From positions 1 through 50,048 of the forward strand of contig CACWTR010000015.1 in NCBI GenBank assembly GCA_902763865.1: 50,048 nt of DNA, in the 5' to 3' direction. The position numbers and the translations under genes were made by a program. This DNA is from an uncultured Bacteroidales bacterium (GTDB lineage Bacteria > Bacteroidota > Bacteroidia > Bacteroidales > Bacteroidaceae). The notes under the pieces are model-generated. The model was not told the DNA's origin and searched no databases. It was given only the letters and a program-made list of their open reading frames with translations. Below are positions 11,054-39,744 of this stretch, in pieces; the first letter of the stretch is position 1, and each line of letters opens with the position of its first letter.

Positions 11054-11806
11054 GTGATAGAACTGCAGCACCTTACAATCGGTTACGGCAACAGGGCCGT
11101 CCTGACGGACATAAACCAAACTATTCCGGACGGTCAGATGATTTGCCTGCTTGGAGCAAACGGCGTTGGCAAGAGTACCTTGCTTCGCACGCTTTCCGGC
11201 TTCATCCCCCCGCTGTCGGGCAAAGTGTTGCTTCAGGGCCGCGAGCTGTCGTCCCTTTCCCTGTCCGAACTGAGCCGTTCTGTCTCCGTGGTGCTGACGG
11301 AACGCGTTGAGGTGCCGAACATGAAGGTTGTAGATCTTGTCGGAATGGGGCGCTCACCCTATACTGGTTTCTTCGGCACGCTCAGCAGCGAGGACCGGGA
11401 TATCGTAGGCAAGGCTATCGAAATGGCAGGTATTGCATCCCTGGCTGGCAGAACCACGGACACGCTATCGGATGGCGAGAGGCAGAAAGCGATGCTTGCC
11501 AAGGCTTTGGCTCAGCAGACACAAGTCATCCTGCTCGACGAGCCGACGGCCTTCCTCGACTTCCACGCGAAGGCCAATACGCTCCGTCTGCTTTCGCAGC
11601 TCGCACACGAGACGGGCAAGAGCATCTTCCTGAGCACTCACGACGTGGAGATGGCACTTCGCTTGAGCGACATTCTCTGGATAGTCCTTGAAGGTCGCAT
11701 CCTGTCCGGCACAACGGACTCACTTACTCAGGACGGCACGCTGAAGCGGTTCCTGGAACCATTCGAGTTGTCGGACCTCCAGACAAGCCATATCCAAGGC
11801 TCGTGA
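11054..11806 (+). CDS. ABC importer ATP-binding protein (FecE/BtuD type)
   Basis: A 250-residue ATPase. Walker A is GANGVGKST (residues 34-42), the signature is LSDGERQK, Walker B is VILLDEPTAFLD and the H-loop is LSTHD, all intact. The start is a GTG at 11054 with a purine-rich AGGAAG about 8 bp upstream; no ATG is available before the conserved IELQHLTIGYGN. The TGA stop (11804-11806) lies within the first unit of the 22-bp repeat array that separates this gene from the convergent YggS gene. It powers the importer with the two preceding genes. Confidence 0.94.
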   Translation: MIELQHLTIGYGNRAVLTDINQTIPDGQMICLLGANGVGKSTLLRTLSGFIPPLSGKVLLQGRELSSLSLSELSRSVSVVLTERVEVPNMKVVDLVGMGRSPYTGFFGTLSSEDRDIVGKAIEMAGIASLAGRTTDTLSDGERQKAMLAKALAQQTQVILLDEPTAFLDFHAKANTLRLLSQLAHETGKSIFLSTHDVEMALRLSDILWIVLEGRILSGTTDSLTQDGTLKRFLEPFELSDLQTSHIQGS

Positions 11807-11929
11807 GTCAAACGAAATAAGCTCACGAGTCGATTGCGATAAGCTCGTGAGTCGATTGCGATAAGTTCACGAGTCGTGGGCGATAAGCTCGTGAGTCGTG
11901 AGCGATAAGATCGTGAGCTTATTTCTGAT
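11798..11929. repeat. 22-bp tandem array A, between two convergent genes
   Basis: Six consecutive units of exactly 22 bp. Starts: 11798, 11820, 11842, 11864, 11886 and 11908. Each has an 8-bp core two bases in (CTCGTGAG, CTCACGAG, CTCGTGAG, TTCACGAG, CTCGTGAG, ATCGTGAG) followed by a linker of the type TCGATTGCGATAAG. The cores mostly alternate between the two strand orientations of the same octamer, and neighbouring copies could pair as 8-bp stems. The array starts inside the end of the ATPase gene and ends inside the end of the YggS gene: the first core contains the TGA of one gene and the last unit contains the TAA of the other. It is one of four related arrays in the window. Confidence 0.9.
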
Positions 11930-12584
11930 AGTTCCTTTCCCCGAAGATAAGACTTCCTATGCGGACCAGCGTAGCACCGTGGCGGACGGCGATGGGGTAG
12001 TCGTGGCTCATGCCCCAGGAACAGGTCGTCCATTTGCCATTTAGCCATTTACTGTTTATCAGTTCAAACAACTCTCGGGCTTGTTCGAACTCACGGGCTA
12101 TCTGGGTTTCGTCGTCGGTGTTCGTTGCCATACACATCAGGCCGCAGATGTTGACGTTCTGGTATTGCTGCCAGGTGCCGTCCTTCATGAAGGCGAGCAG
12201 CTCGTCGGGGCTGAAGCCGTACTTAGTCTCTTCCTGGGCCACGTGCACTTCGAGCAGGACGGGAATCGTGCGGTTGCAGCGCTTTGCCTGCTTGTCAATC
12301 TCGCGAATCAGGTGTTCGGAATCGACAGCATGAATGAGGCTGACGAAGGGGGCAATGTACTTCACCTTGTTCGTCTGGAGGTGGCCGATGAAGTGCCACT
12401 CGATGTCCTTTGGCAGTTCCTCGTACTTGCTGACCAACTCCTGAACATGACTCTCTCCGAAAATGCGCTGTCCGCCGTCGTAAGCTTCGCGGATAAGCGA
12501 GGCGGGATGAAACTTGCTGACAGCAACGAGGCGGACGCCTTCCGGCAAGGTCTTTTTGATTTCGTTTATTCTTTCGCTTACCAT
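11919..12584 (-). CDS. YggS-family pyridoxal phosphate homeostasis protein
   Basis: A 221-residue single-domain PLP-binding protein of the YggS/PROSC family, which buffers vitamin B6 and has no known catalytic reaction. The PLP lysine is in VRLVAVSKFHP, and FGESHVQELVSKYEEL, WHFIGHLQTNKVKYI, GLMCMA, WGMSHDYPIAV and LVRIGSLIFGERNY are all family blocks. An odd feature is the stretch NSKWLNGKWTTCSWGMS: its DNA (12030-12053) contains three near copies of TAAATGG, the same microrepeat that fills a non-coding gap at about 32 kb. The stop codon lies in the last unit of repeat array A. Confidence 0.93.
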   Translation of the reverse strand: MVSERINEIKKTLPEGVRLVAVSKFHPASLIREAYDGGQRIFGESHVQELVSKYEELPKDIEWHFIGHLQTNKVKYIAPFVSLIHAVDSEHLIREIDKQAKRCNRTIPVLLEVHVAQEETKYGFSPDELLAFMKDGTWQQYQNVNICGLMCMATNTDDETQIAREFEQARELFELINSKWLNGKWTTCSWGMSHDYPIAVRHGATLVRIGSLIFGERNYQK

Positions 12585-12599
12585 ATTCTTAACTTAAAG

Positions 12600-12797
12600 C
12601 ACGGATTACTTCCAACAACGGATTATTTTCTACAACGGATTGCACGGATTTGACGGATTAGACCGAGGATTTATATATGCTATAAAAATCTGTTTAATCC
12701 GTTCAATCCGTTCAATCCGTTGTGTTATATAATTATGTCAATCGTAATCTTCGTAATTTTGCTATTCGTCCAATCCGTGGTTGAATGTAATCCGTTT
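12600..12797. repeat. Inverted cluster of ACGGATT / AATCCGT heptamers
   Basis: The gap between the YggS gene and the DUF4494 gene holds five copies of ACGGATT on the left (12601-12660) and five copies of AATCCGT, its reverse complement, on the right (12696-12797). The AT-rich centre at 12661-12695 has no copies. Three of the right-hand copies are in tandem at a 10-bp step. The last copy runs up to the DUF4494 stop codon. The whole could fold as an imperfect long hairpin. Function unknown; the symmetry is directly visible. Confidence 0.8.
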
Positions 12798-13242
12798 ATT
12801 CTTCGTCTGCCTTGAACTTGAAGACGTCGATGATGGCCGTCTCTGCTATGGAGACAATGACCCATTCTCCGAGCGTACCCTTCATTCCTTCGTCGAGCCT
12901 TGTGAGGGCACGATGCAGCTCATTTGCCTGGACGAGAACTGTCTGCACGGTCCGTTTCTCCACGCCGCTCTTCTCGTCGAGGGTGATGAAGGCCACGCGA
13001 GCCTTGAACCATCGGTCATCGTTCAGGTCGTCGCTGTCGAAGAGCTCGGAGATGCGTGCACGCTTGATGTCGGTCACCAAGAATTCGCCCGACATGAAGG
13101 GCGTTATCTCCTCGATGAAGCGCTTCTCTGCCTCCGTGAAGCTGAGGGCGTCAACCAAATATGTCTCTGTGGTCTTCTTGATGAGACCGTTCTCCAAGGT
13201 CTTGTCGTAGCGGACCTTGCATTCAAACCATTCGCTTTGCAT
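12796..13242 (-). CDS. DUF4494 domain protein
   Basis: A 148-residue soluble protein of a conserved Bacteroidetes family of unknown function (DUF4494). It starts MQSEWFECKVRYDKTLENG and contains TETYLVDALSFTEAEKRFIEE and FKARVAFITLDEKSGVEKR, typical of the family. No signal peptide or membrane segment is present. A probable -7 element lies 34 bp upstream, and repeat array B lies beyond that. Nothing about the neighbours points to a function. Confidence 0.85.
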   Translation of the reverse strand: MQSEWFECKVRYDKTLENGLIKKTTETYLVDALSFTEAEKRFIEEITPFMSGEFLVTDIKRARISELFDSDDLNDDRWFKARVAFITLDEKSGVEKRTVQTVLVQANELHRALTRLDEGMKGTLGEWVIVSIAETAIIDVFKFKADEE

Positions 13243-13276
13243 TTCTGTATAAGTTGTATTGTGTGTTTACAAAGTA

Positions 13277-13284
13277 CAAAGTTA
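13277..13284 (-). promoter_or_regulatory. Probable DUF4494 promoter (-7 element)
   Basis: Reads TAACTTTG on the minus strand, 34 nt before the start codon at 13242. The -33 position (about 13304-13307) reads TATG, a weak match to TTTG. The segment from 13329 to 13344 further upstream closely matches one upstream of the GSCFA gene. Confidence 0.5.
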
Positions 13285-13413
13285 CGGCTTTTTTCTCGGT
13301 TGACATAGCGTTTTCAAGAAGTTTTTGCCTTAATTTGAGACAAATTGTACAAGTTATACGAGGGATATCAAAATGAAGGACAAGAAAACACTATGCCTCG
13401 TGTTGCTTTTTAC

Positions 13414-13523
13414 CTCACGAGTCATAGCCGTTTGACTCACGAGTCATAGCCGTTTGACTCACGAGTCGTAGCCGTTTACCTCACGAGTCGTAGCCGTTTG
13501 ACTCACGAGGGAAAACCATATAC
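13414..13523. repeat. 22-bp tandem array B
   Basis: Five 22-bp units starting at 13414, 13436, 13458, 13480 and 13502. Each begins with the core CTCACGAG followed by TCATAGCCGTTTGA or a close variant; the last unit keeps only the core. All five cores have the same orientation on the plus strand. Looser relatives occur at the edges (CCTCGTGTT near 13396 and GTCACGTT at 13524). The array lies downstream of ygiQ and upstream of the DUF4494 promoter. Read on the minus strand, the linker (GGCTATGA) resembles the GGCCATAA of arrays C and D. Confidence 0.9.
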
Positions 13524-13597
13524 GTCACGTTGTGTTTCGCTTCACTCCGTTTTACGCGTCGTCAAGATGCGTTAGGCTGATGACTGCATCCCAGTTC

Positions 13598-15475
13598 CTA
13601 ACTCAGCTTTCGCAGGATATCCTGTCTGCCGATGCTGCGCAGGTAGTGTTCTATCTGGCGGCGTTCTTCGGGTTTGTACCAGAAGAAGAACATGCGTTGC
13701 TGCTGCTTCTCTTCAGGGGTCTTGGCGCTAAAGACGGGCTCTAACGTATAGGGGTTGTAGCCTGTGGCCCAGCAGGTTGTAGCCATCGTCAAGGGGGTGG
13801 GAGTGAAGTCCTGCACTTGCTCCAGATGGAAGTCCATTTGTTTTGTCTGGATGGCGAGCTGAGCCATGTCGAGGGCGGTGCAGGCAGGATGGCTCGAGAT
13901 GAAGTAGGGAATGATTTGCTGGCGGAGTCCCGCGCGTCGGCATGTAGCGTCGAAGATGCTCTTGAACTGCCTGAAGAGGCTGAACGAGGGCTTGCGCATG
14001 AGGTTGAGCACCGTGTCGCTCGTATGTTCGGGTGCCACCTTGAGCCTGCCGCTGACGTGACGGGTGATGAGTTCCTGCGTGTATTCCTTTGTAGCACGGT
14101 TGAGAGTCTCATCCCTCCAGTCGTGCAGGAGCATGTCGTAGCGTATGCCGCTGCCAATGAAGCTCTTCTTGATGCCCGGCAGCTTATCTACCGCCCTGTA
14201 GATGTCGAGCAAGGGACGGTGGTCGCCGTTCAGGTTGGGGCAGATGGCTGGATGAATGCACGAAGGCCGTTTGCACTTCTCGCACGGTTCGTGCCGTTTG
14301 CCTTGCATGCGGTACATGTTGGCGCTCGGCCCGCCCAGGTCGCTCAGGTAGCCTTTGAAGTCGGGCATTTGCGTAATGGCCTTTACCTCGCGGAGGATGC
14401 TCTCCTTCGAGCGGCTCACGATGAACTTACCCTGGTGAGCGCTGATGGTGCAGAAGGCACAGCCGCCGAAGCAGCCACGATGGAGTGTGACGCTGAACTT
14501 TATCATCTCGTAGGCCGGGATGCGCTTGCCCTTGTACTTAGGGTGCGGCAGTCGCGTGTAGGGCAAGTCGAAGCTCTGGTCGAGCTCTTCGGAGGTGAGG
14601 GGCGGGTAGGGGGGATTGACCATTGTCCACCTGCCTTTGACCATTTGCAGAAGGCGATGGGCGTGCATCCTGTTGCTTTCTTCCTCGATGTGGCGGAAAT
14701 TCTCGGCGTGCAGGCGAGGCTCTCGCAAACAATCCTCGTAGCTGTGGAGCACGATGTCGTCGGCCTTGATGCCTCCCGGTACCTCGTTCTTGCCGAGGAG
14801 CCATGCGCTTTGCGGCAAGTCCTTTGCCACGTCCCGAAGCACCTGGCGTGTGATGCAGGCCTCGCCGTTCTCGTCGTAGTGGAGCAGGGGGTGAGCATCG
14901 CCGATGGCATCGACAAGAAGACGGACCAGTTCCAGCGTCGGCTTCTCGCCCATGCCGTAGGTGATGAGGTCAGCGTCGCAGTCTGCAAGGATGCTTGGGC
15001 GAAAGCGCTCCTGCCAGTAGTCGTAGTGCATGACGCGGCGAAGGCTTGCCTCAATGCCGCCCAGGACGATAGGAACGTCGGGGTAGAGCTTCCGCAGAAT
15101 GTCGGTATAGACGATGGTAGGGTACTCGGGGCGCAGGTCGTGGCGTCCGTCGGGGCTATAGGCATCCTCGCTGCGGAGGCGACGGGCTGCTGTGTATTTG
15201 TTGACCATCGAGTCCATGCAGCCTGGCGAGATGCCGAAGAAGAGGCGCGGACGGCCCAGCTTCCTGAAATCGCGATAGTCGCCGTGCCAGTCCGGTTGCG
15301 GAACGATGCAGACGCGCAACCCTTCAGCCTCCAGCAAGCGCCCTATGACGGCAGCACCGAAGGCAGGGTGATCCACATAGGCATCGCCCGAGAAGAGAAT
15401 CACGTCGGCCTGTTCCCAGCCGCGCAACTCCATTTCCTTCCGGGTCGTAGGCAACCAGTCGCTCTTAGAGTTCAT
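13598..15475 (-). CDS. YgiQ-family radical SAM protein
   Basis: A 625-residue cytoplasmic protein of the YgiQ radical SAM family; the substrate is not established for the family. The cluster-binding motif CFGGCAFC places cysteines at about residues 335, 339 and 342. The N-terminal region (LFSGDAYVDHPAFGAAVIGR, VLGGIEASLRRVMHYDYW) is the cobalamin-binding-like domain usual for this family, and CEKCKRPSCIHPAICPN adds a second cysteine cluster. Its first 11 bases overlap the end of the small gene at 15465-15761, so the two are probably co-translated. Confidence 0.93.
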   Translation of the reverse strand: MNSKSDWLPTTRKEMELRGWEQADVILFSGDAYVDHPAFGAAVIGRLLEAEGLRVCIVPQPDWHGDYRDFRKLGRPRLFFGISPGCMDSMVNKYTAARRLRSEDAYSPDGRHDLRPEYPTIVYTDILRKLYPDVPIVLGGIEASLRRVMHYDYWQERFRPSILADCDADLITYGMGEKPTLELVRLLVDAIGDAHPLLHYDENGEACITRQVLRDVAKDLPQSAWLLGKNEVPGGIKADDIVLHSYEDCLREPRLHAENFRHIEEESNRMHAHRLLQMVKGRWTMVNPPYPPLTSEELDQSFDLPYTRLPHPKYKGKRIPAYEMIKFSVTLHRGCFGGCAFCTISAHQGKFIVSRSKESILREVKAITQMPDFKGYLSDLGGPSANMYRMQGKRHEPCEKCKRPSCIHPAICPNLNGDHRPLLDIYRAVDKLPGIKKSFIGSGIRYDMLLHDWRDETLNRATKEYTQELITRHVSGRLKVAPEHTSDTVLNLMRKPSFSLFRQFKSIFDATCRRAGLRQQIIPYFISSHPACTALDMAQLAIQTKQMDFHLEQVQDFTPTPLTMATTCWATGYNPYTLEPVFSAKTPEEKQQQRMFFFWYKPEERRQIEHYLRSIGRQDILRKLS

Positions 15476-15761
15476 TCTTCTCCCAGTCGATATAGAGCAG
15501 GATGAGCTGATGCAAGCCGAATGCTTTCATGTCGGGATGGAAGAGAATGTGTTCGCACAGGTCTATCAGCTCGGGGTCGGTACTGCCGGAAGAGAGCATG
15601 GAACGCACATTCAGCCGCAGCTTCTCCAGTACGGTTTCCTCTACGATGCCGTTGCTGTCGAGCAGGTCAGAGAAAAGGGAATAGCGCCTGATGGTGTTCA
15701 AGTGGGCTTCGCTGACAGAAAGTTTGCGCGAGCCTTTCATGTTGCATAATATGGTAAACAT
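15465..15761 (-). CDS. Small protein of unknown function upstream of ygiQ
   Basis: A 98-residue protein, or 91 if the inner ATG at 15740 (MKGSRKLSVSEAHLNTI) is used. I do not recognise a domain. It is predicted to be soluble and helical, rich in Leu and Glu, with SSGSTDPELIDLCEHILFHP in the middle. It overlaps ygiQ by 11 bp and follows the golvesin/FN3 gene by 30 bp, so it lies within an operon-like run. The overlap supports translation. Confidence 0.6.
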   Translation of the reverse strand: MFTILCNMKGSRKLSVSEAHLNTIRRYSLFSDLLDSNGIVEETVLEKLRLNVRSMLSSGSTDPELIDLCEHILFHPDMKAFGLHQLILLYIDWEKNEL

Positions 15762-15791
15762 CTTTGTGAATATGATTGTTTTAGTATGAAT

Positions 15792-18700
15792 TTACTTCCC
15801 CAGCAGATAGTCAACGGCAATGCCGAGGATGCCTCGCCGCACCTCGTCGTCCTTGATGCATTCCAGGGGGAAGCCGAATGCCATAACACGATAGCCGGGG
15901 CCAGGATAGGCGATAGCAGCAGAGTAGCCTCCGGACTTGTAAGCCATCGTGCTGAAAGAACCGCCGACGGGCTCGATGACATCGCTTTGACGAATCCAGT
16001 AGTTCTGCTCACTCGGACGGCTGTAGATGTCGGCAGTACTGTTCAGTCCCTGCACGGTGCAAATGCTGTCGGTCGGGACGGAAACCGTGAAGCGATACTT
16101 CAGCTTGTCGGCAATGAAACCGTCCTCTCCGGCATTGTGGGCGTCGCTGCCGATGAAAGCACCGCTCACTATGATGGACGTGCCCTGCAACGTCAGCTGG
16201 GAAATAGCGGAAAGCATCTCGGGGGTGAAAGCTTTGCGACGAGTCAGGGAATAGCCGTCATCCTTCTGTGCTCCGAGGATGAAGTCGGCAATGTTATAGC
16301 TCCTGAGGTCAAGGCTGGCCAGTTGCGCGGGATTGGTGCTGCTGATGTTGCAGTCGGGATGCTTTGCAAGGATATCCATAGCACCAAGAACACTGTAGTT
16401 GTGAGTGTTGCCGGCCAGGATCATACCTTCCCATTCGTCGCTGCTCACGCCCATGCCATCGCCCGTCTCCTTGCCGTACTTACTCTTGTCGAAACTCAGT
16501 TGGCGACCACAGTAGCCGGGCGACTTCACGTCGATGACACCCGGGTCGCGGTCGAAGTCGAATCCGCTATTCAGCTCGTTGTCAAATGGGAGAGGGCCTG
16601 CCATCCTCTGGAAGGCATCGACCATCAGAATGGAAGGAGCACCGGGATTGGCCGAGAAAGCTGCACACACCTCGTCGCTTGGCAGGCTCTGGCCTCCCTC
16701 GTTGACTGCTGCTACACGGAAGCTGTAAAGAACACCAGCTTCGGCTTGCATCTGATAAGTGCAGTTGTCCCCGCCTACGTAGTGCCCGTTGTCGAAGTCC
16801 TCGCCTGCCTTTTTCGTATAGACTACGTAGCCATCGGGCTTCGCGGTGGGTTCCGAAACGTCCAGCCTCGGCGTCCAATGCAGGGTGATTTCATTCTTAT
16901 CCCTGTTCGCTTCGGCAGAAATGCCGGCAACGGGCAACGGCTGGACAACGTAGTCCTTCCCGCCGTGTATGGTGGAGAGGAAACGAAGGATGCCCTTATA
17001 GATGGAGCGGGCCATGAGGAACTTGAACCAGGGGTCGTGTCCGAGGCACATGTCTGCCCAATTCTGGTGACTAAGCATCTCAAGCAGGACGGCAGGACAC
17101 TGCGGGTCGCGACTCTCGCCATAATTGCGGTCGTAGAGGTCGCGCCGGTTCCAGAAGCCAAGTTCGCGCGACAGGTCGGCGTTGATTTGTGTCATCACGA
17201 GGTCTGCCAGGTCGCGGCTCACCAGCCTGGAGAGACCCGTAGCCGTCTTTCCCTCGTAGAAGCCTGTCGTATAGATACCAAGCGAGCCGACCAGTGTGTT
17301 GTCCGTCCGGAAGCCGGCATCGCTGTGCACTGCCATATACATCTCGATGGGAACATTGAGTCCGCTGTCGCCCCTCAGATAATTGGAACCCTTCGTCAGG
17401 TAGTTGATAGTAAAGGGGCGCGTGTTGACGTCGTCCCTGCCGTCATCGTTGCCTCGCGGGGAATAGACGCTGTCCGGCATTCCGTACCATTGTGCTGAAT
17501 AGCGTGCTGCCTCAAGGAATCGGGGCAAGTCGCTACCAATGGGCAGTGACATCGTCGAGTCGCCGCGAACGATGTTGCCCATGCCGCCACCCAAGCGGAC
17601 TGCATCTGCCGTGACGACACCTTTGTAGTTGCTCAGGTTGTTCAGGATGATGCAGTTGTCCTCGCTCAATCCTTTGGTGAAATGGAATGTGCCGAGATAG
17701 ACCCATGTGCCGCCGCCCATCTGCTGGTTGACCTTGAAAGTAGTCGAGACGCCACTATGCTTGACCGTATAGTTGGCATCGGGAATGCTGTTCGGCACCG
17801 TCTGGTAGGAAACATAGACGGCATAGTCGTCCTCGACAAGCACGTCGGGAATCCAGACGACATCGCTCGTCATCCTCTTGTCGTGTGTGGCTTCGGTCAT
17901 CTGGAAGGTTCCCATGCGGAAAGGATTCTCGCCGTTCTCGTAGCCTTCATGCCGGTGTGCAAAGCCGACACCGCCATAGAGCCAATGGTACTTACTGATG
18001 CGCTCTTCGTAGCGACTGCCGTCCATGATGAAGTCATTGTCGATGATGATTTCCTGCTTCTGCCAGTCGCGTTCTCTCGGAGTGAAGACAACAGCTCCGG
18101 CATTCTGGAGCATCGGTATAAGATAAGGTACGACAAAAGTCTGGGTGAACATGTCCTCGGTGGTACAGAAGAGGCGCGGACGCTGCCACACCCATTCCTG
18201 CTTGGCATGATTGTAGTATTTGCCGTGGCTTTGGCAAATGCCGAGATGCCTGCCCTGTAGGCCTTTCTTGATGGTATAAGGCAGACTCGCAGGTGTCACC
18301 CAGGGATTGCCCTTGTAGAGTTCACGTCTATAGACACGTGCCGTGTCGCTTCCGTCCAGCATACTTGTCGGAATGAGATGCTCGATTGGAGATCCTGCGG
18401 CAAAGATGCTCACGTCGTATGTGTTGTAAGGCATTGGCAGGAGACGCTTCACCTCTGCATAGAGGTCTCCGACGATGAGCGGCGTGAGGGGCTGAGCGAT
18501 AAAATTGTCACTCAGCACGATGGTCATGTGCTTTGTCTGGGCATCGGTCCGAATGTCCTCAACATTTATCTTGCCGAGGTTGGGGAACAATGGATTGGTA
18601 TATGTCGAAAAGTATTGGCGAAGGTTTGCAATGCCGTTGTCCTGGGCGAGTGCCGCGGGACATTGAGTCGTGAGAAGGAAGAGAAGAAGGAGGTGAAGAA

Positions 18701-18812
18701 GAAGTCCTTCTCTCCAGGCTTTCCGTTTCGTGGTGTGACGTTGGGAAGATACGATGGGATTGAAGTTCTTGATAAGGTTACGTAGAGAGTTATTCATTTT
18801 TGTATTGTTCAT
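15792..18812 (-). CDS. Large secreted protein with golvesin-like and fibronectin III domains, amidase-like core
   Basis: About 1006 residues from the ATG at 18812 (a GTG three codons upstream is also open). A long, basic N-terminal stretch precedes a hydrophobic segment ending in AALAQD, an export signal. At about residues 330-420 a golvesin C-terminal-like domain is visible (YAVYVSYQTVPNSIPDANYT, GTWVYLGTFHF, VVTADAVRLGGGMGNI). The next region (MYMAVHSDAGFRT, SRLVSRDLADLVMTQINADL, CPAVLLEMLSHQNWADM) resembles the Amidase_3 fold of N-acetylmuramoyl-L-alanine amidases. A fibronectin type III domain follows (ITLHWTPRLD, AGVLYSFRVAAVNEGGQS), and the last 250 residues are unassigned. Related Bacteroidetes proteins are often named xanthan lyase, which the sequence does not support. 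Probably acts on the cell surface or peptidoglycan. Confidence 0.7.
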   Translation of the reverse strand: MNNTKMNNSLRNLIKNFNPIVSSQRHTTKRKAWREGLLLHLLLLFLLTTQCPAALAQDNGIANLRQYFSTYTNPLFPNLGKINVEDIRTDAQTKHMTIVLSDNFIAQPLTPLIVGDLYAEVKRLLPMPYNTYDVSIFAAGSPIEHLIPTSMLDGSDTARVYRRELYKGNPWVTPASLPYTIKKGLQGRHLGICQSHGKYYNHAKQEWVWQRPRLFCTTEDMFTQTFVVPYLIPMLQNAGAVVFTPRERDWQKQEIIIDNDFIMDGSRYEERISKYHWLYGGVGFAHRHEGYENGENPFRMGTFQMTEATHDKRMTSDVVWIPDVLVEDDYAVYVSYQTVPNSIPDANYTVKHSGVSTTFKVNQQMGGGTWVYLGTFHFTKGLSEDNCIILNNLSNYKGVVTADAVRLGGGMGNIVRGDSTMSLPIGSDLPRFLEAARYSAQWYGMPDSVYSPRGNDDGRDDVNTRPFTINYLTKGSNYLRGDSGLNVPIEMYMAVHSDAGFRTDNTLVGSLGIYTTGFYEGKTATGLSRLVSRDLADLVMTQINADLSRELGFWNRRDLYDRNYGESRDPQCPAVLLEMLSHQNWADMCLGHDPWFKFLMARSIYKGILRFLSTIHGGKDYVVQPLPVAGISAEANRDKNEITLHWTPRLDVSEPTAKPDGYVVYTKKAGEDFDNGHYVGGDNCTYQMQAEAGVLYSFRVAAVNEGGQSLPSDEVCAAFSANPGAPSILMVDAFQRMAGPLPFDNELNSGFDFDRDPGVIDVKSPGYCGRQLSFDKSKYGKETGDGMGVSSDEWEGMILAGNTHNYSVLGAMDILAKHPDCNISSTNPAQLASLDLRSYNIADFILGAQKDDGYSLTRRKAFTPEMLSAISQLTLQGTSIIVSGAFIGSDAHNAGEDGFIADKLKYRFTVSVPTDSICTVQGLNSTADIYSRPSEQNYWIRQSDVIEPVGGSFSTMAYKSGGYSAAIAYPGPGYRVMAFGFPLECIKDDEVRRGILGIAVDYLLGK

Positions 18813-18830
18813 TGTGTCCACCTAAAAGTT

Positions 18831-18850
18831 ACTCCCCTGTGCGGGGGAGT
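18831..18850 (-). terminator. Possible terminator hairpin after the acyltransferase gene
   Basis: A perfect 7-bp stem, ACTCCCC / GGGGAGT, with a 6-nt loop. On the minus strand it is followed by AACTTTT, a short and weak U-tract. It lies between the acyltransferase stop (18874) and the start of the golvesin/FN3 gene (18812), so it may weaken read-through into that gene. Confidence 0.35.
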
Positions 18851-18873
18851 GAACGCGAGACTTGTGTTATGAG

Positions 18874-19679: not shown

Positions 19680-19712
19680 CTATATATATTATATAAGGTA
19701 TGTTTAGAGTGA

Positions 19713-27114: not shown

Positions 27115-27224
27115 CACGTGTGCTTCGAAGCAGAAGCTCGCGACGTGTTGGCCATAACGTCGCGACGTGTTGGTCATAACCTCACGATCTTCTGTGCGGA
27201 ACGTCACGTTGAAAATACCCACAT
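27115..27224. repeat. 22-bp tandem array C, in a divergent promoter region
   Basis: Units at 22-bp steps start at 27115, 27137, 27159, 27181 and 27203. The two best are CTCGCGAC and GTCGCGAC cores, each followed by the linker GTGTTGGYCATAAC. The other three keep only parts (CTCACGAT, GTCACGTT, CACGTG). The linker GTTGGYCATAA is identical to that of array D read on the opposite strand. Array C lies between divergent promoters of the GSCFA and DMP19 genes, about 120 bp from the first and 255 bp from the second. Confidence 0.85.
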
Positions 27225-30731: not shown

Positions 30732-30734
30732 ATT

Positions 30735-31961: not shown

Positions 31962-31974
31962 CGTGGGAGACAAA

Positions 31975-32071
31975 TAGTAAATGGTAAATGATTAAATGGT
32001 AAATGGATAATACCAAATGGTAAATGGAGATAATACCAAATGGTAAATGGTAAATGATTAAATGGTAAATA
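31975..32071. repeat. TAAATGG microrepeats before the transporter gene
   Basis: About ten imperfect copies of TAAATGG or TAAATGA in 97 bp, including a larger duplicated block built on ATAATACCAAATGG. The array occupies the gap between the methyltransferase stop and the transporter start, and several ATGs in it compete as starts. No TAnnTTTG promoter is present. A smaller copy of the motif lies inside the YggS coding sequence. Confidence 0.75.
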
Positions 32072-32073
32072 TC

Positions 32074-33351
32074 ATGATGAATCTAAAGTTTCGCTTAACT
32101 CTCCTCAACTTCCTTGAGTTTGCAGTATGGGGAGCTTATCTGACCTCAATGGGCACCTACCTAGCCGGAGTAGGCTTGGGCTCCCATATCGGCTGGTTCT
32201 ATTCCGTGCAAGGCATCGTCAGCATCTTCATGCCGGCTCTGATGGGCATCCTGGCCGACCGCTGGATGGAAGGGCAGCGCGTATTGAGTCTCTGCCACGC
32301 GTTTGCCGGCCTCTTCATGATAGCTGCATCATTCTATGGCTATCAGGCAGGCGATGCCGTCCAGTTCAGCACGCTTTTCTCGCTTTACTCGCTCTCCGTC
32401 GCATTCTTCATGCCAACCATCGCTCTCAGCTATTCCGTAGCATACTCTGCACTGGAAAAGGCAGGGTTCGACACCGTCAAAGCCTTTCCGCCAATTCGCG
32501 TCTGGGGAACCGTCGGCTTCATCGTCACGATGTGGATTGTGGATCTTTGCGGGTTGCAGTCAACGCCGGGACAGTGGATGGTGAGCGGATGCCTGAGCCT
32601 GCTGATGGCTGCCTACGCGCTCACAATGCCTCGCATGCCTATCAATCAAGATGACAACAAGCAGAAAACTCTGTTTGAGGCACTTGGACTGAATGCGTTC
32701 AAGTTGTTCCTCAACCCTCGTATGGCAGTCTTTTTGGCCTTTGCGATGTTACTTGGCTTCTGCCTGCAAATCAGCAACGGCTATGCAAATCCTTTCATCA
32801 CCAGCTTCGGCAGCGTAGCGGAGTACCAGGACACCTTTGGCGTCCAGCATGCCAATATCCTCATTTCCCTCTCGCAGGTAAGTGAGACGCTTTGCATCCT
32901 GCTCATTCCTTTCTTGCTGTCGCGCTTCGGCATCAAGCGCGTAGTGCTGATTGCCTTGCTGGGATGGGTGCTGCGCTTTGCCTTCTTCGGAATGGGCAAC
33001 CCCGGCGACGGCGTCTGGCTTTTCCTGCTATCAATGATAGTCTATGGCGTCGCCTTCGACTTCTTCAACATCTCCGGCTCGCTCTTCATTAACCAGGAGA
33101 CCGACGAAAGCATCCGCTCGAGTGCTCAGGGGTTGTTCATGATGATGACAAACGGACTCGGTGCCTTCGTGGGAACGCTGGTGGCTCAAGAAGTCATCAA
33201 CAGCTATGTCTTCACGCCTCAGTCCCAGGGAGCAACAGGAGCCGAAATCATTGCCGGCTGGCAGACCAGCTGGTTCATCTTTGCAGGCTATGCTATGGTC
33301 GTTGCAATACTGTTCGCAATACTATTCAAGGATAAGAAGAAGGCGGCATGA
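32074..33351 (+). CDS. MFS nucleoside:H+ symporter (NupG-like)
   Basis: About 425 residues with twelve hydrophobic segments. It belongs to the nucleoside:H+ symporter family of the MFS (NupG/XapB type); FLEFAVWGAYLTSMGTYL at the N-terminus and AFPPIRVWGTVGFIV in the first half are typical blocks. It imports nucleosides across the inner membrane. Starts 32062 (GTG), 32074 or 32077 are all possible; 32074-32077 matches the conserved MNLKFRLTLLNF beginning. Its stop overlaps the rsmE start (ATGA). Confidence 0.9.
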   Translation: MMNLKFRLTLLNFLEFAVWGAYLTSMGTYLAGVGLGSHIGWFYSVQGIVSIFMPALMGILADRWMEGQRVLSLCHAFAGLFMIAASFYGYQAGDAVQFSTLFSLYSLSVAFFMPTIALSYSVAYSALEKAGFDTVKAFPPIRVWGTVGFIVTMWIVDLCGLQSTPGQWMVSGCLSLLMAAYALTMPRMPINQDDNKQKTLFEALGLNAFKLFLNPRMAVFLAFAMLLGFCLQISNGYANPFITSFGSVAEYQDTFGVQHANILISLSQVSETLCILLIPFLLSRFGIKRVVLIALLGWVLRFAFFGMGNPGDGVWLFLLSMIVYGVAFDFFNISGSLFINQETDESIRSSAQGLFMMMTNGLGAFVGTLVAQEVINSYVFTPQSQGATGAEIIAGWQTSWFIFAGYAMVVAILFAILFKDKKKAA

Positions 33352-34058
33352 AGGAAGAACGTTTCTTCTACGACCCGTTGCTCACCGGTGTGCTGCCTGC
33401 AGAAGAGGCACATCATGCCTCGAGAGTCCTGCGCCTTCAGTCGGGCGACGAGGTTCACCTCATCGACGGACGAGGCAACTTCTGTCGGGCAGAGCTGACG
33501 ATTGTCTCGAACCACAGGGTGCAATACCGCATCCTCGAGCGCGAACCGCAGCAACCGTCCTGGCAGGGATATTTGCATTTAGCCCTTGCACCGACCAAGA
33601 TGATGGAGCGCGTGGAGTGGTTTGCCGAGAAAGCTACAGAGATTGGGTTCGACGAACTGACTTTCCTCGACTGCCAGTTCAGCGAACGTCGGGTCGTAAA
33701 GGAGGAACGCATCGACAAGATACTCGTTTCAGCCATGAAGCAAAGCCACAAAGCCCGGAAGCCCGTCCTCAACGGAATGACAGACTTCGGACGCTTCGTC
33801 GGGCAGGAACGCGAAGGCGACAAGTTCATCTGTCACTGCCACGAGAGTTCTGTCGGTTCCCCTCTTCTCTTCGATGTCTTGCGTCCCGGCGTGCCTGCCA
33901 CCGTGCTCATTGGCCCCGAGGGAGACTTCAGTATCGACGAGGTGCAGTTAGCTTTGCAGAACAATTACAGGGAAGTATCGTTGGGGAAAAGCAGACTCCG
34001 GACGGAAACAGCAGCACTCGTTGCCGTCCACATGATGCATCTTAAGAATATATTATAA
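33348..34058 (+). CDS. rsmE: 16S rRNA (uracil-1498-N3) methyltransferase
   Basis: A 236-residue SPOUT-family methyltransferase that modifies U1498 of 16S rRNA. The knot region carries VLIGPEGDFSIDEV and SLGKSRLRTETAALVA, and the N-terminal PUA-like domain has HHASRVLRLQSGDEVHLIDG. Length and motifs are standard. It overlaps the upstream transporter by 4 bp and is followed by a DUF4836 gene 13 bp later. Confidence 0.96.
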   Translation: MKEERFFYDPLLTGVLPAEEAHHASRVLRLQSGDEVHLIDGRGNFCRAELTIVSNHRVQYRILEREPQQPSWQGYLHLALAPTKMMERVEWFAEKATEIGFDELTFLDCQFSERRVVKEERIDKILVSAMKQSHKARKPVLNGMTDFGRFVGQEREGDKFICHCHESSVGSPLLFDVLRPGVPATVLIGPEGDFSIDEVQLALQNNYREVSLGKSRLRTETAALVAVHMMHLKNIL

Positions 34059-34071
34059 TAATGTGTATATT

Positions 34072-35466
34072 ATGAGGAACAAGTATTTCATCGCACTTGC
34101 CTGTCTGCTGCTTGCCGGAATTACAGTTTGGTGGTTCCTGCGCGACAGCGACAAGGCTCGGAACATTCTGCCGCAAGAGGCGACGGCTGTAGCTGTGGTC
34201 GAGCCTTCCGAACTTCTGGATGGACTTGGCCTTGACCCGACCAAAGTAGGCAAGCTTGTCTTTAACATGGATGATGTAGCCAAAGGAATCGACCTCACGA
34301 AACCCGCCTATATCTTCATGACGAAGAGCGGCTTTTCGGGCATTACCCTGAATGTCCGCAATGAAGAAAAGCTCCTGAAGGTCTTCTCATCGCTTGGATT
34401 GGCAAATGAAGAGAAGAATGGCTTTCAATGGGTTGGGAGTAACGACATCGTCGGTTGCCTCGACAGCGACAAGATGTTGCTTTGCATAGCTGCGGAAGCA
34501 GAGCAGGATGCACTTAGGAATGACTTGGAAAGACTGATGAAGCAAAGTCGTCAGGACATGCCTCTGCTCGAAAGGGCCAACAGGCAAAAGGGGTTCCTTC
34601 GCCTGTGCGCTTCCCTGAGCAGTCTGCCCAAGAGCCAGCTGCCGCGGGGTTACGACGCTTCCGGTGCATTCGTCAGTGCAGCGATGGCAGTCGGGAATCA
34701 GGACATCACACTCTCCGCAAGGATTGAGGACGAGAACGGGAAGCCTTATTCCGGCAGACTTGCAGGAGAAGAGCTGCTGCAGCCCATACAAGGCTCAGTG
34801 CCGACGATTCTTCCCGACGATGCATTTGCTTGGTTCTGTCTGGGCATCAAAGGCGAGCAGTTGCTGAGAATCCTTCGCAGCCGCAGTCCGCAGCTAAGTT
34901 CAACACTGATGGCCCTGAATGTGGCTTTCTTCGATGCCGACTTACTGCTGAAAGCCATTGACGGCGATGTAATCTTTATGCTGCCAAAGGCCGACTTTAC
35001 CCAAAGAGAGATGCTTGTCACAGCTCACATCTCCAATTCCGATTTCTTGAAAGAAGCCAAAGATTGGAACACCACTTCTACTCAAGGCGGGATGAGCTTG
35101 CGGAAGAGAGGCGAGGCAGATGACTATGTCTTTACCTTCCGAAACGAGAAACTGTACTTTGGCGTCCGCGGGGAAATGCTTTACCTGTCATCCTCTGAGC
35201 GATTGGCCGACCGGATTCTTCAGGAGTCGGAACAAGGTTCGCTCCAGCCGATGGCGGCAGGCAAGTACTTGTGCGGGACGGTCGATGTAGGGAAGCTACT
35301 GAAAGACAACCCTGCCGCAACTCTTCTGCTGGCAGCAGTTCCGCCGGTTGCAAAAGCTGTCAGAGCTTTGGACAAGTTCGAGGTGACGTGTCCGACGTCT
35401 CAGAGCATCGAGTTGAGGCTGAAGACAAACGAGCCCGTCAAGGAAATTATGTCAAGCCTATGGTGA
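34072..35466 (+). CDS. DUF4836 family membrane-anchored protein
   Basis: A 464-residue protein of the Bacteroidetes DUF4836 family. Residues 5-19 form one hydrophobic segment (YFIALACLLLAGITVWWFL), a signal anchor; the rest is predicted to face the periplasm. Recurrent family features are the early EATAVAVVEPSELLDGLGLD and the central VAFFDADLLLKAIDGDVIF. The function is unknown. The ATG at 34072 is preferred over a GTG 9 bp upstream. It is 14 bp ahead of the ATPase gene in the same run. Confidence 0.72.
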   Translation: MRNKYFIALACLLLAGITVWWFLRDSDKARNILPQEATAVAVVEPSELLDGLGLDPTKVGKLVFNMDDVAKGIDLTKPAYIFMTKSGFSGITLNVRNEEKLLKVFSSLGLANEEKNGFQWVGSNDIVGCLDSDKMLLCIAAEAEQDALRNDLERLMKQSRQDMPLLERANRQKGFLRLCASLSSLPKSQLPRGYDASGAFVSAAMAVGNQDITLSARIEDENGKPYSGRLAGEELLQPIQGSVPTILPDDAFAWFCLGIKGEQLLRILRSRSPQLSSTLMALNVAFFDADLLLKAIDGDVIFMLPKADFTQREMLVTAHISNSDFLKEAKDWNTTSTQGGMSLRKRGEADDYVFTFRNEKLYFGVRGEMLYLSSSERLADRILQESEQGSLQPMAAGKYLCGTVDVGKLLKDNPAATLLLAAVPPVAKAVRALDKFEVTCPTSQSIELRLKTNEPVKEIMSSLW

Positions 35467-35480
35467 CAACTGACAGGAGA

Positions 35481-36125
35481 ATGAATGCAATAACACTCGA
35501 TAACATCTTGCCCCTGGTTTTTCTGAAGAGGACAGACATCCAGAGCGACATTTGGCGAAGACAGGTTACGCTGGAAAGGGGCAATACCTACCTCGTCGAA
35601 GCTGCCAGCGGAACGGGCAAAAGCTCACTCTGCAGCTTCATCATCGGCTATCGCAATGATTTCGACGGCACAATCCGCTTCGACAATCGCGACAGCCTTG
35701 AACTGAGGCCGGGGGAGTGGACGGAGCTTCGACAGCGACACATCAGCATGCTCTTCCAGGAGCTGCGCCTCTTCCCCGAACTCACGGCGATGGAAAACAT
35801 AGAAATAAAGAACACGCTGACCCGCTTCAAGGAGAAGAAGGAAATAGGACAGTGGTTCGAGGCACTCGGCATTGCCGACAAGATGCAGTCTCCCATCCGC
35901 CTGATGAGCTTCGGCCAGCAACAGCGCGTCGCCCTCATCCGCGCCCTTTGCCAGCCCTTTGACTTCCTCCTGGCCGACGAACCCATCTCGCACCTCGACG
36001 ATGCCTGTTCCGCTCAGATGGCCGCCATCATGCAGGAAGAGGCGCGAAGGCAGGGAGCCGCTATCGTCGTCACCAGTATTGGCAAGCACTTGCCCTTGTC
36101 CTACGATAATACATTCAGGCTATGA
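35481..36125 (+). CDS. ABC transporter ATP-binding protein with atypical motifs
   Basis: A 214-residue ATPase paired with the downstream permease. Walker A is AASGTGKSS (residues 41-49), the Q-loop is LFQ (residues 91-93) and Walker B is DFLLADEPISHLDD (from residue 161). The signature reads MSFGQQQR (residues 142-149) where LSGGQ is usual. The H-loop region is VVTSIGKHL, with Ser where a catalytic His is expected. Hydrolysis may be reduced or the protein may act mainly as a regulated clamp; that is inference. The start at 35481 follows the DUF4836 stop by 14 bp. It overlaps the permease gene (ATGA). Confidence 0.85.
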   Translation: MNAITLDNILPLVFLKRTDIQSDIWRRQVTLERGNTYLVEAASGTGKSSLCSFIIGYRNDFDGTIRFDNRDSLELRPGEWTELRQRHISMLFQELRLFPELTAMENIEIKNTLTRFKEKKEIGQWFEALGIADKMQSPIRLMSFGQQQRVALIRALCQPFDFLLADEPISHLDDACSAQMAAIMQEEARRQGAAIVVTSIGKHLPLSYDNTFRL

Positions 36126-37324
36126 GACTTGTATGGAAACTTCTGCGCCGGCACATCAGTCTGCCGCAGCTTGCCGGCTTCTTCTTTGCCAATTTGCTGG
36201 GGATGCTCATCGTGATGCTCAGTCTTCAGTTCTACCTCGACGTGAAGCCCGTACTCAGCGAGGAAGACGGCCTTATCCGCCCCGACTTCCTTATCTTGAA
36301 CAAACGCATCTCTGCCCTGAACACGATAGGACTCAATTCCGCAGGCACCTTCTCGGAAAGGGAGCTGGAAGAGCTGCGAAGCCAACCGTTTGCAAAGAGG
36401 GTAGGGACCTTCACGTCCAGCCAATACAAAGTCGGGTGCAGCTTCGGCCTTGAAGGGGTGGCGCAGATTGGAACGGAGATGTTCTTCGAGAGCGTGCCCG
36501 ATGCCTTTGTCGATGTCGATATGCAGAAGTGGCATTTCAGTCCGGGCGATGCTTTCGTGCCTATCATCCTGCCGCGCACCTATTTGGCTATCTACAACTT
36601 CGGCTTTGCCCAGAGCCAGAACCTGCCTAAGCTGTCCGAGGGAATTGTGGGGATGGTCGATATGACCGTCTCGATGCGGGGCAACGGCATGAACGAATAC
36701 ATGAAGGCACGCGTGGTAGGCTTCAGCTCGCGGCTCAACACCATCCTTGTGCCCGAGGACTTCATCCGCTGGAGCAACGCCCGCTATGCACCCGATGCCG
36801 ACACTTCGCCCACGCGCATCATTCTCGAAGTAACCAATCCTGCCGACGACGACATACTGAGCTACCTCAATGCTCACGGCTACGAGCAGGAAGTGGATAA
36901 GCTCGATGCCGGACGAATAACCTTCTTCCTCCGTATCACAGCCAGCATCGTAATGGCAGTCGGACTGCTCATCAGCCTGTTGAGCTTCTACATCCTCATG
37001 CTCAGCATCTACCTGCTCGTCGAGAAGAACTCCGAGAAGATGCGCACCCTTCTGCTCATTGGCTACAGCCCGGCTCGCGTGGCTCTGCCCTATCAGCTGC
37101 TCACTTCGGGCATGAATGCTGCCATCCTTCTGCTCGCCACAGCCGCACTGTGCGTCTCTCGCGCGTTCTACATGCAGAAGCTTCTGGCCGTATTCCCCCA
37201 GATGTCTGGCGGAAGCCTTCTCTGTGCGTTAGCTGTCGGCTGCTCGCTTTTCGCCTTCGTCAGCATCGTCAACATCATAATGATTCGTCACCGTATCAAC
37301 AGAATCTGGCAAAACAAAGACTAA
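36122..37324 (+). CDS. FtsX-like ABC transporter permease
   Basis: A 400-residue protein with one N-terminal membrane helix (about residues 15-38), a large extracytoplasmic domain (about 40-270), and three C-terminal helices (about 275-305, 325-350 and 362-385). This is the MacB/FtsX-type layout, used for mechanical transmission or export rather than classical channel transport. It is coupled to the atypical ATPase by a 4-bp overlap. Its TAA stop overlaps the start of the kinase fusion gene. The cargo or target is unknown. Confidence 0.83.
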   Translation: MRLVWKLLRRHISLPQLAGFFFANLLGMLIVMLSLQFYLDVKPVLSEEDGLIRPDFLILNKRISALNTIGLNSAGTFSERELEELRSQPFAKRVGTFTSSQYKVGCSFGLEGVAQIGTEMFFESVPDAFVDVDMQKWHFSPGDAFVPIILPRTYLAIYNFGFAQSQNLPKLSEGIVGMVDMTVSMRGNGMNEYMKARVVGFSSRLNTILVPEDFIRWSNARYAPDADTSPTRIILEVTNPADDDILSYLNAHGYEQEVDKLDAGRITFFLRITASIVMAVGLLISLLSFYILMLSIYLLVEKNSEKMRTLLLIGYSPARVALPYQLLTSGMNAAILLLATAALCVSRAFYMQKLLAVFPQMSGGSLLCALAVGCSLFAFVSIVNIIMIRHRINRIWQNKD

Positions 37325-39594
37325 TGGAAGAACTCAAGAGACTATACCGCGAAGCTACCGGACTCGAGGTGGCAAAAACCGAAGAACTGCCAGGAGCGGG
37401 GAGCAACCGCCACTATTACCGACTGCACGGAACGGACGGCAGCACCCTCATCGGAGCCATCGGAACCAGCCGCGACGAGAATCATGCCTTCTGCTACCTG
37501 GCAGCCCACTTTGTACGTGCCGGGCTGCCTGTACCGCAGGTGATAGCAGAGAGCAGGGACGGGCTGCGCTACCTGCAGACCGACCTCGGGGACCTCTCGC
37601 TCTTCGATGCCCTGAAGGGCGGACGCAAGGCTGGCGGACGTTACAACGCCCGTGAACGCGAATTGCTGCGCCGCACCATTGCTGCACTGCCTTCCTTCCA
37701 GATTCGCGGAGCTCGCGGCCTCGACTTCACCCATTGCTATCCGCAAGCCGCGCTCGACGAGACCAACGTCCTCTTCGACCTCAACTATTTCAAATACTGC
37801 TTCCTTAAAGCTACGGGGCTTGACTTTCACGAACTGAAGCTCGAAGCCTCCTTCCAGCTTCTGGCACGCGACATCGTCTCCATTCCTGCCAGCGCCTTCA
37901 TGTACCGCGATTTCCAGGCACGCAACGTCATGCTCGATGCCGAAGGGAATCCCTACTTCATAGACTTCCAGGGAGGACGTCGCGGCCCTGTCCAGTACGA
38001 TGTAGCCAGTTTCCTCTGGCAAGCCTCGGCACACTACCCGGGGAAGTTGCGCCGCCAGCTCATCGACATCTACCTGCAGAGCCTCAAGCAGTATCAGGAA
38101 GTCAACGAGAAGCAGTTCCGCGAAGGGCTGCAGCTCTGCGTACTCTTCCGACTGCTTCAGGTACTCGGTGCCTACGGTTTCCGCGGGTACTTCGAGCGCA
38201 AGCGGCACTTCCTCGACAGCATCCCGCCGGCAATGGACAACCTGCGCGAGCTGCTCAGCGAAGGCGGCTGCCCCTATCCCTACCTCAGCGAAGTGCTCTC
38301 GAAGCTCGTCTGCCTGCCGCAGTTCGCTCCGCAAAAGCCGGAACCGGTACGCCGTGCCGACGGCCTCCGCACTACCGACCTGAACCCCTACAGCGCTCAC
38401 CCGCAGGACGGACCGCCCACCTTCAGCCGCTACGACGGACGCGGCCCCCTCGTCGTGCGCATCTTCAGCTTCTCCTACCGGAAGGGTATTCCCGAGGACA
38501 CGAGCGGCAACGGCGGAGGCTACGTCTTCGACTGCCGCAGCACCCACAATCCCGGACGCTACGAACCCTACAAACAGCTGACCGGCCTCGACGAACCCGT
38601 CATCCGTTTCCTCGAAGACGACGGCGAAATCCTCACCTTCCTGGAGAGCGTCTATCGCCTGGCTGATGCCCACGTCCGTCGTTACATTCAGCGAGGCTTC
38701 ACCAGCCTCATGTTCAGCTTTGGCTGCACGGGAGGCCAGCACCGCAGCGTCTATAGCGCTCAGCACCTGGCGGAGCACATCCACTACAAGTTCGGCATCG
38801 AGGTTCACGTCTGCCACCGCGAGCAGGGTATCAGCAGCGTCTTTCCTGCCGCACGCGCCATGATATTCGCTGCCGGTCTGGGCACACGCCTCAAGCCTCT
38901 CACCGACACAATGCCCAAGGCCCTTGTTCCAGTCTGCGGCAAGCCCCTGCTGGAACACGTCCTCACGAAGCTCAAGCAGTCCGGCATCTACGATGTCGTC
39001 ATCAACGTCCACCACTTTGCCGACATGATAGAGGACTGGGTCAACCAGCATCCAATGGACATGAACATCTTCTTCAGCGACGAGCGCGACGGCCTGCTCG
39101 AGACAGGCGGCGGCATCAAGCACGCTGCACCTCTGCTGCGCGATGCTCTGGACGGCTTCCTCATCTGCAACGTCGATATTCTCAGCAATGCGGACCTCCG
39201 TGCCCTCTCCGAGGCCGGACGGAAGGGAGGAAACGCGGCCACACTGCTCGTCAGCGAGCGCGAGACGCAGCGCTACCTGCTCTTCGACGACGACATGCGG
39301 CTCGTGGGCTGGACCAATGTTGCTACGGGCGAGGTGCGCAGTCCCTATCCCGGCCTCGCGCCCCACCTTTACCGCCGCTACGCATTCGCCGGCATACACT
39401 ACATGAACCCACGGCTCTTCCGGTACTTCGACGAACAGCCCGACCGCTTCAGCATCATTGATTTCTATCTCTCCGTCTGTGACCGCGAACCCATCTACGG
39501 CCACCTCCAGCCTGGCCTCCGCCTCCTGGATGTCGGAAAGACTTCCACGCTCTCTGTCGCCGAATCTTTCCTCTCGGAGATAAAGGGGCAATGA
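37324..39594 (+). CDS. Three-domain fusion: AmgK-like sugar kinase, RapZ C-terminal domain, MurU-like nucleotidyltransferase
   Basis: About 756 residues in one uninterrupted frame. Residues 1 to about 330 are an aminoglycoside-phosphotransferase-fold kinase (YRDFQARNVMLD near residue 194, then IDFQGGRRGPVQYD). Residues about 374-505 are a RapZ C-terminal domain (FSFSYRKGIPED, GCTGGQHRSVY). From residue 513 a sugar-1-phosphate nucleotidyltransferase begins (MIFAAGLGTRLKPLTDTMP). In Pseudomonas, AmgK and MurU are separate enzymes of cell-wall recycling that convert MurNAc to UDP-MurNAc via MurNAc-1-phosphate; here both steps would be on one chain. The RapZ part may sense or bind a glucosamine phosphate. 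The assignment of substrate is inference. The start overlaps the permease stop (TAATG). Confidence 0.88.
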   Translation: MEELKRLYREATGLEVAKTEELPGAGSNRHYYRLHGTDGSTLIGAIGTSRDENHAFCYLAAHFVRAGLPVPQVIAESRDGLRYLQTDLGDLSLFDALKGGRKAGGRYNARERELLRRTIAALPSFQIRGARGLDFTHCYPQAALDETNVLFDLNYFKYCFLKATGLDFHELKLEASFQLLARDIVSIPASAFMYRDFQARNVMLDAEGNPYFIDFQGGRRGPVQYDVASFLWQASAHYPGKLRRQLIDIYLQSLKQYQEVNEKQFREGLQLCVLFRLLQVLGAYGFRGYFERKRHFLDSIPPAMDNLRELLSEGGCPYPYLSEVLSKLVCLPQFAPQKPEPVRRADGLRTTDLNPYSAHPQDGPPTFSRYDGRGPLVVRIFSFSYRKGIPEDTSGNGGGYVFDCRSTHNPGRYEPYKQLTGLDEPVIRFLEDDGEILTFLESVYRLADAHVRRYIQRGFTSLMFSFGCTGGQHRSVYSAQHLAEHIHYKFGIEVHVCHREQGISSVFPAARAMIFAAGLGTRLKPLTDTMPKALVPVCGKPLLEHVLTKLKQSGIYDVVINVHHFADMIEDWVNQHPMDMNIFFSDERDGLLETGGGIKHAAPLLRDALDGFLICNVDILSNADLRALSEAGRKGGNAATLLVSERETQRYLLFDDDMRLVGWTNVATGEVRSPYPGLAPHLYRRYAFAGIHYMNPRLFRYFDEQPDRFSIIDFYLSVCDREPIYGHLQPGLRLLDVGKTSTLSVAESFLSEIKGQ

Positions 39595-39634
39595 GACAGT
39601 CCGGCACCATCATCCTCTCGTCCATAGAAAAAAC

Positions 39635-39744
39635 GACTCGCGAGCTTATGACCAACGACTCACGAGCTTATGGCCAACGACTCGCGAGCTTATGACCAAC
39701 GACTCGTGAGCTTATGGCCAACGGCTCGTGGAGTCGGAAGTTCC
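39635..39744. repeat. 22-bp tandem array D
   Basis: Units at 39635, 39657, 39679 and 39701 are near-perfect 22-bp copies; a fifth at 39723 is degenerate. Each begins GACTCRCGAG or GACTCGTGAG followed by CTTATGRCCAAC. On the minus strand the linker reads GTTGGYCATAA, the same as in array C. The core centre varies as GC, AC, GC, GT. The array lies between the fusion gene stop (39594) and the OmpH-like gene promoter (39844). Confidence 0.92.

Follow-up and report, generated by a model that had tools for sequence, protein, structure and literature searches.

Short intergenic arrays at an exact 22-bp step in Bacteroidaceae as possible cooperative patches for fast-changing DNA-binding proteins

Short intergenic arrays in the genome of an uncultured Bacteroidales bacterium repeat a CTC-RY-GAG core at a strict 22-bp step, and genomes of the same bacterial family carry further arrays in which the step is kept and the letters differ. 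We tentatively favour the reading that these arrays are rows of dimer sites, comparable to iterons, that would serve fast-changing DNA-binding proteins as cooperative patches. A step that is constrained while the letters are free, in several genomes of one family, is unusual. The arrays may point to overlooked gut-bacterial DNA-binding proteins whose specificity shifts between close species, and array DNA would be a ready bait for finding them.

The window, a stretch of 50,048 nucleotides that is contig C15 of the assembly (2.91 Mb, 84% complete), holds 15 exact CTCRYGAG sequences against 6.4 expected, a number reached in 0 of 100 shuffles, and 13 of the 15 fall within arrays (A 4, B 5, D 4). 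The exact 22-bp period that a sequence-only reading of this DNA had claimed at four loci is recovered by TRF at arrays A, B, C and D, none of which has an assigned strand. Array A (11800-11917) comprises six cores at 22 bp, four of them exact and then the near cores TTCACGAG and ATCGTGAG, between convergent ABC-transporter and YggS-type genes (all gene calls come from a small home-made caller). Coding overlap had been proposed at both of its ends; the ABC-transporter gene (11054-11806) does have its stop codon inside the first core, whereas the far end only adjoins the 3' end of the YggS-type gene. Array B (13414-13509), in which five exact CTCACGAG cores follow one another every 22 bp, lies 88 bp after the stop of a YgiQ-type radical-SAM gene on the minus strand, enclosed in an element (13370-13553, likewise without an assigned strand) that has the ends AAAATGAAGGACAAGAAAACAC and ...CTCCGTTTT and belongs to the class II type described below. 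Array D (39637-39732), with four exact cores and CTCGTGGA at 22 bp, lies 42 bp after the stop of a RapZ_C/NTP-transferase gene on the plus strand. Array C (27137-27210), between divergent GSCFA and DMP19 genes, is a degenerate relative of A, B and D that has no exact core; its four degenerate cores, at 27137, 27159, 27181 and 27203, read CTCGCGAC, GTCGCGAC, CTCACGAT and GTCACGTT. The proposal that every unit carries CTCGTGAG, CTCACGAG or CTCGCGAG thus holds for most units of A, B and D, but fails in array C and at the near cores of A and D, while the linker sequence GTTGGYCATAA said to be common to C and D, and GCGATAAG in A, are both present. Rfam gave no match at the gathering score across the window. 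Positions 4771-4845, 12601-12721 and 31971-32070 contain separate repeats of intergenic type, with periods of 7-9 and 16 (ATTTGACA, AATCCGTTC, AAATGGT).

Genome-wide, CTCRYGAG-N14-CTCRYGAG pairs number 128 in 2.91 Mb, against 0 for the reversed control and about 0.01 expected by our own estimate from the information content of the pattern. At least 41 distinct arrays were examined with their surroundings, a lower bound with AC-GT-type pairs taken among the matches listed; the stretches were picked for holding arrays, and TRF overlooks diverged ones. Nearest-core spacing in these stretches was 22 bp in 127 cases, 44 in eight, and 66 and 47 in one each, where the value of 22 is partly selected, the stretches having been chosen by the 22-bp pattern, and the near-absence of other spacings is not. 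Linkers are locus-specific over the 41 arrays, which bears out the near-uniformity within a locus suggested from the window, and relatives also carry the pair pattern; the outcome named beforehand as speaking against a family, no more arrays or a freely varying spacing, did not occur. The exact triple pattern had no match among viruses in IMG/VR. Among the matches listed, CTCRYGAG triples at 22 bp appear also in Mumia quercus, Aeromicrobium and a Verrucomicrobia assembly (loci L055, L066, L069, L082; L071, L090; L031, L037, L040, L054, L107).

Core and linker change in different ways. We phased 44 TRF period-22 arrays to the core (eight further arrays without it were set aside), and in the resulting 126 neighbouring unit pairs, from stretches that had been chosen by the core, C3 and G6 showed no change, R4 and Y5 showed 39 transitions and no transversion, and core positions 1, 2, 7 and 8 varied in 4-6% of pairs, mostly by transversion, while linker positions changed in 5.6-31%. 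An RY step occupies the centre of phased CTCNNGAG in 165 of 165 units of the genome itself, 62 of 62 in Bacteroides ndongoniae and 94 of 95 in an uncultured Bacteroides (CASDXF), with unphased occurrences scattered, although part of the units behind these counts were selected by the RY pattern. The combination CTCATGAG is found in 0 of the 165 own phased cores, though A4 and T5 are individually common; it occurs in 6 of 62 cores of B. ndongoniae and 6 of 95 of CASDXF.

One way to read the 14-bp linker is as two five-base arms around a mostly G+C-rich four, which places a second centre 11 bp from the core centre. With one linker drawn per array, the central four are GGCC in 17 of 42 arrays, A stands at arm position 1 in none of 84 arms, and a pyrimidine stands at position 2 in 81 of 84. 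The arms are independent of one another: their complementarity (1.93 of 5) does not exceed the value after re-dealing arms among arrays (1.89), and coupled changes at symmetric positions in the own genome (3 against 4.2 expected) show no excess. In other family genomes double changes at symmetric positions are more frequent than independence predicts (45 against 23.8), but no more than 13 of these are complementary, about the chance level. Since the arms lack both complementarity and compensatory change, protein half-sites fit them better than nucleic-acid hairpins. Mean dyad symmetry of period-22 units has a z of 0.98 (sem 0.24, n=45) against 0.0 at period 21 (n=16), and a clear dyad is missing from many individual 22-bp units. 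Two classes can be told apart. Class I arrays, of the GGCC type, often have a stop codon within tens of bases of their start, and in two cases (array A of the window and L293) it lies inside the array itself; they have no shared ends. Class II arrays such as B, which by eye make up about 8 of 41, combine nearly palindromic linkers with AAAA- and TTTT-type element ends.

Across the family, the pair pattern occurs in 19 of 301 genomes, with 1 to 128 pairs each; carriers among the matches listed include B. ndongoniae (G149, 118 pairs), CASDXF, Bacteroides UBA939 and Mediterranea, and linker sequences vary from species to species. A close relative (L083, UBA3297; 88.7% over 2779 bp) has the contig C30 array in the corresponding position, with one unit bearing a different linker and one further base changed. 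Because the reversed control GAGYRCTC was strong in some other genomes (102 pairs in G019), a search for other cores was begun. In a TRF sample of 50 family stretches (918 kb, 26 genomes), intergenic arrays at periods 20, 21, 22, 23 and 24 numbered 2, 5, 25, 2 and 2; coding arrays at period 22 numbered 0, and the count at period 11 was 9. Twelve of the 50 stretches came from G149 and G069 and had been picked for core or control matches, and these two genomes supplied 9 of the 25 period-22 arrays, the other 16 coming from genomes not picked for core matches. The peak rests on 8 of the 26 genomes, those with at least one intergenic period-22 array, and most of these arrays carry sequences other than CTCRYGAG. 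Twenty stretches (335 kb) from other families of the order gave 2, 2 and 3 arrays at periods 21, 22 and 23. Side cases include a 10-unit 22-bp array of B. ndongoniae whose core, CTCRCAAG, is a variant of the main family (L340:5942-6166), a pair of 23-bp arrays that contain CTCACAAG, from a genome in a different family of this order (L216:8231-8298 and 9647-9736), and arrays at the half step of 11 bp in two family genomes, with 11.5 and 5.8 copies (L205:48-172 and L185:5690-5753).

Other letters recur at the same step. The four-base centres C-R-Y-G, G-Y-R-C and T-Y-R-A are conserved in phase in 14, 15 and 14 of 51 arrays, against column-shuffle values of 5.7, 5.5 and 6.3; of the remaining five among the eight tested centres, three were rarer than in shuffles and two as expected. 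B. ndongoniae alone holds at least five 22-bp sequence families by eye. A G060-type core was found in 0 of 158 genomes of the order, a sample to which G060 itself does not belong and which therefore has no positive control. The CTC arrays are one of several 22-bp families, in which letters differ between species and the step stays. In six of 29 congeners the YggS gene is followed by an array whose sequence is unrelated, at 22 bp in G344, G194, G343 (where the gene ends 63 bp before the array), G271 and G374 and at 44 bp in G408; since 22/44-bp arrays also occur at 13 of 60 similarly sized control loci, the shared place after YggS may reflect only their abundance.

We propose that the 22-bp unit could consist of two opposed 11-bp half-sites meeting at CTC-RY-GAG, with each core occupied by a dimer of a sequence-specific protein that binds double-stranded DNA. 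The spacing of two helical turns would set the dimers on one face, touching one another, and two to nine weak sites would together form one cooperative patch. Lying mostly between genes, and in the own genome often just past stop codons, such patches may organise, insulate or roadblock and leave promoters undisturbed. If specificity changed fast among species and a genome could have several such proteins, the step would be kept and the letters would change; rapid change of the core would then reflect fast-shifting specificity or exchange of the proteins. The cooperative dimer on one helix face suggested by the sequence-only reading is the best reading of the strict register, the invariant C3 and G6, the transition-only R4 and Y5 and the uncoupled, non-complementary arms, from which we infer a protein, its dimeric state and its cooperativity; nucleoid structure, local silencing and termination, as named by that reading, are candidate cellular roles. 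The average dyad symmetry of period-22 units and the family-level peak at 22 also favour the proposal. This analysis found no binding protein for the arrays, and a core that changes rapidly between species would be odd for a housekeeping DNA-binding protein, which counts against the proposal, as do the many single units that have no clear dyad, the excess of double changes in other family genomes and the weaker lean towards 3' ends in other species.

The strongest rival, though rather unlikely in our judgement, is that the arrays are selfish or neutral minisatellites, functionless products of short intergenic seeds expanded by tandem duplication, some of them on MITE-like elements. The near-uniform linkers of single arrays would be expected of such a process, as would the unit exchanged at the same place in the close relative; unit exchange implies tandem turnover, which by itself is enough to keep a period and so counts against a binding function. 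About half of 30 CASDXF arrays, judged by eye, have long common flanks of a MITE-like kind, and BrickBuilt of Porphyromonas gingivalis is such a minisatellite in the available text of PMC4596501. Expansion of this sort, however, leaves unexplained why C3 and G6 never change and R4 and Y5 change only by transition, and why sequences that are unrelated share a 22-bp step.

Placement bears on a second rival, quite unlikely on balance, in which the sites would work at 3' ends, either at the RNA level or as DNA hairpins, forming tandem hairpins or terminators. Same-strand genes flank 26 of the 41 arrays, convergent genes 9 and divergent genes 3; the other 3 have no called gene on one side. Of the 26 same-strand arrays, 20 are closer to the upstream 3' end (median distance 31.5 bp, against 164.5 bp; p 0.009 by sign test), and divergent sites are scarce (3/38 against about 33/128 other intergenic regions, p 0.02, the latter counts obtained by subtraction); both features suit action at 3' ends, as do the A- and T-tract ends of class II elements and, by eye, the inverted last units followed by T-runs in G194 and G271. 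The lean towards 3' ends is weaker in other species than in the own genome: 5 of 7 same-strand arrays in B. ndongoniae, where 6 of 18 placed arrays are divergent, 13 of 16 in CASDXF, where 8 of 30 arrays are unplaced, and 2 of 4 in Mediterranea/RGIG. Against hairpins or terminators, convergent sites are not clearly enriched relative to other intergenic regions (p 0.11), intrinsic terminators are no more frequent at array-bearing 3' ends (5/38 against 19/88), and the arms neither complement nor compensate one another, for which reason we reject RNA hairpins and cruciforms. Rho-type (rut) sites are rejected as well, the mRNA strand having no C excess of the kind they need (C 1294, G 1235), and so are stop-codon cassettes, given stops in all frames in 25 of 42 mRNA strands against 20.5 expected.

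It is improbable that the arrays work as Noc/SlmA-like sites for chromosome positioning, being dispersed, cooperative and kept clear of the terminus. The CTC arrays on contig C1 of B. ndongoniae are unevenly spread (P 0.0006): of 27, only 1 falls within the initial 0.9 Mb, which makes up 39% of the contig, and 19 fall at 1.74-2.17 Mb (the list used a restricted linker, the unrestricted list being in agreement as far as 1.74 Mb). Over 24 sampled stretches, the summed skew peaks, terminus-like, at 0.4-0.5 Mb, and seven 22-bp arrays of other families are present inside the gap. On C10 the skew changes sign, from negative at 0.2 Mb to positive at the array loci (0.38 to 0.96 Mb), as would be expected if an origin lay between. 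The gap, however, concerns one genome and its bounds were fixed after the data had been seen; C2 alone gives P 0.056, the contrast between families (0/7 against 4/13) is not significant (p 0.25), and the region also appears richer in atypical DNA. The near-absence of the CTC family around the inferred terminus of B. ndongoniae is thus a lead from a single genome. We would give just as little credence to the broader idea that two-turn arrays with fast-changing, mostly palindromic cores form a chromosome-organising code, in which several families would each have their own rapidly evolving dimeric protein and the main family would stay out of the terminus, like nucleoid-occlusion sites in other phyla.

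It is very doubtful that the arrays are cognate repeats of a Y1 HuH transposase (TnpAY1 subclass 1.2), as in REP/RAYT systems, and as a general partner this enzyme is rejected: although a strong Y1 match occurs in 8 of 11 family genomes with at least two CTC pairs compared with 31 of 290 others (Fisher p 5e-6, or 2.8e-5 when the own genome is left out), with the gene 183 bp from an array in G000 and 124 bp in G019, across the whole genus only 2 of 8 triple-array genomes have a match (29/139 overall), 22/44-bp arrays occur at 8/30 Y1 loci against 7/30 and 6/30 control loci (the own genome being in each set), the G000 gene is flanked by a different hairpin repeat, and G010, G060, G194 and G271 have 22-bp arrays and no Y1 match. 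The G000 locus (contig C4, L293:1280-2130) holds a Y1 HuH transposase-like gene at 1402-1857 on the minus strand with the subclass 1.2 motif, flanked by the hairpin repeats GCCCTGAAAGGGC and CCCAGGGCATCGCCCTGGG; the subclass, whose motif is Y-x-x-N-Q-x-x-H-H, is listed without a REP in the text available from PMC6006769. At three loci of the own genome (L124:12030-12335, L132:6008-6278 and L149:1-214), 22-bp arrays are adjoined by a repeat of roughly 215 bp that has an inverted-repeat structure; it matches others, and its hairpins are those of the Y1 locus.

The cooperative patches that we favour can be compared with several known systems. In plasmid iterons, direct repeats stand about two helical turns apart and one protein reads them from one face. 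The arrays share with iterons their equal repeats, here at 22 bp, but differ in being dozens of short arrays spread over the chromosome with a nearly palindromic unit, and the window genes scanned include no Rep gene beside the arrays. With Noc and SlmA sites, as far as the available text of PMC4117426 describes them, they have in common dispersed palindromic sites and, in one genome, a possible terminus gap; SlmA sites are richer near the origin in that source. Unlike those sites, the arrays are tandem, have species-specific letters and yielded no protein partner in this analysis. REP/BIME repeats with their RAYTs, in the accessible parts of PMC6006769 and PMC3733652, are likewise short, palindromic, intergenic and species-specific; the arrays depart from them in keeping an exact 22-bp tandem register, and most carriers in the genus have no cognate RAYT (2/8).

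In the open-access literature that we searched, subscription journals lying mostly outside our scope, we found no account of such arrays save for a remark in the available text of PMC4596501 that 22-nt repeats had been noted in P. gingivalis strain W83. BrickBuilt, reported there from P. gingivalis and P. gulae, has a 23-nt unit within a MITE that has a leader, a tail and IS5-like ends. It resembles our arrays as an intergenic tandem repeat of Bacteroidales, some of ours also lying within MITE-like elements, and element-like flanks surround some CASDXF and class II arrays. Set against BrickBuilt as that text portrays it, the arrays stand apart in their 22-bp unit, in their many sequence families and in mostly having no leader, tail or IS5-like ends.
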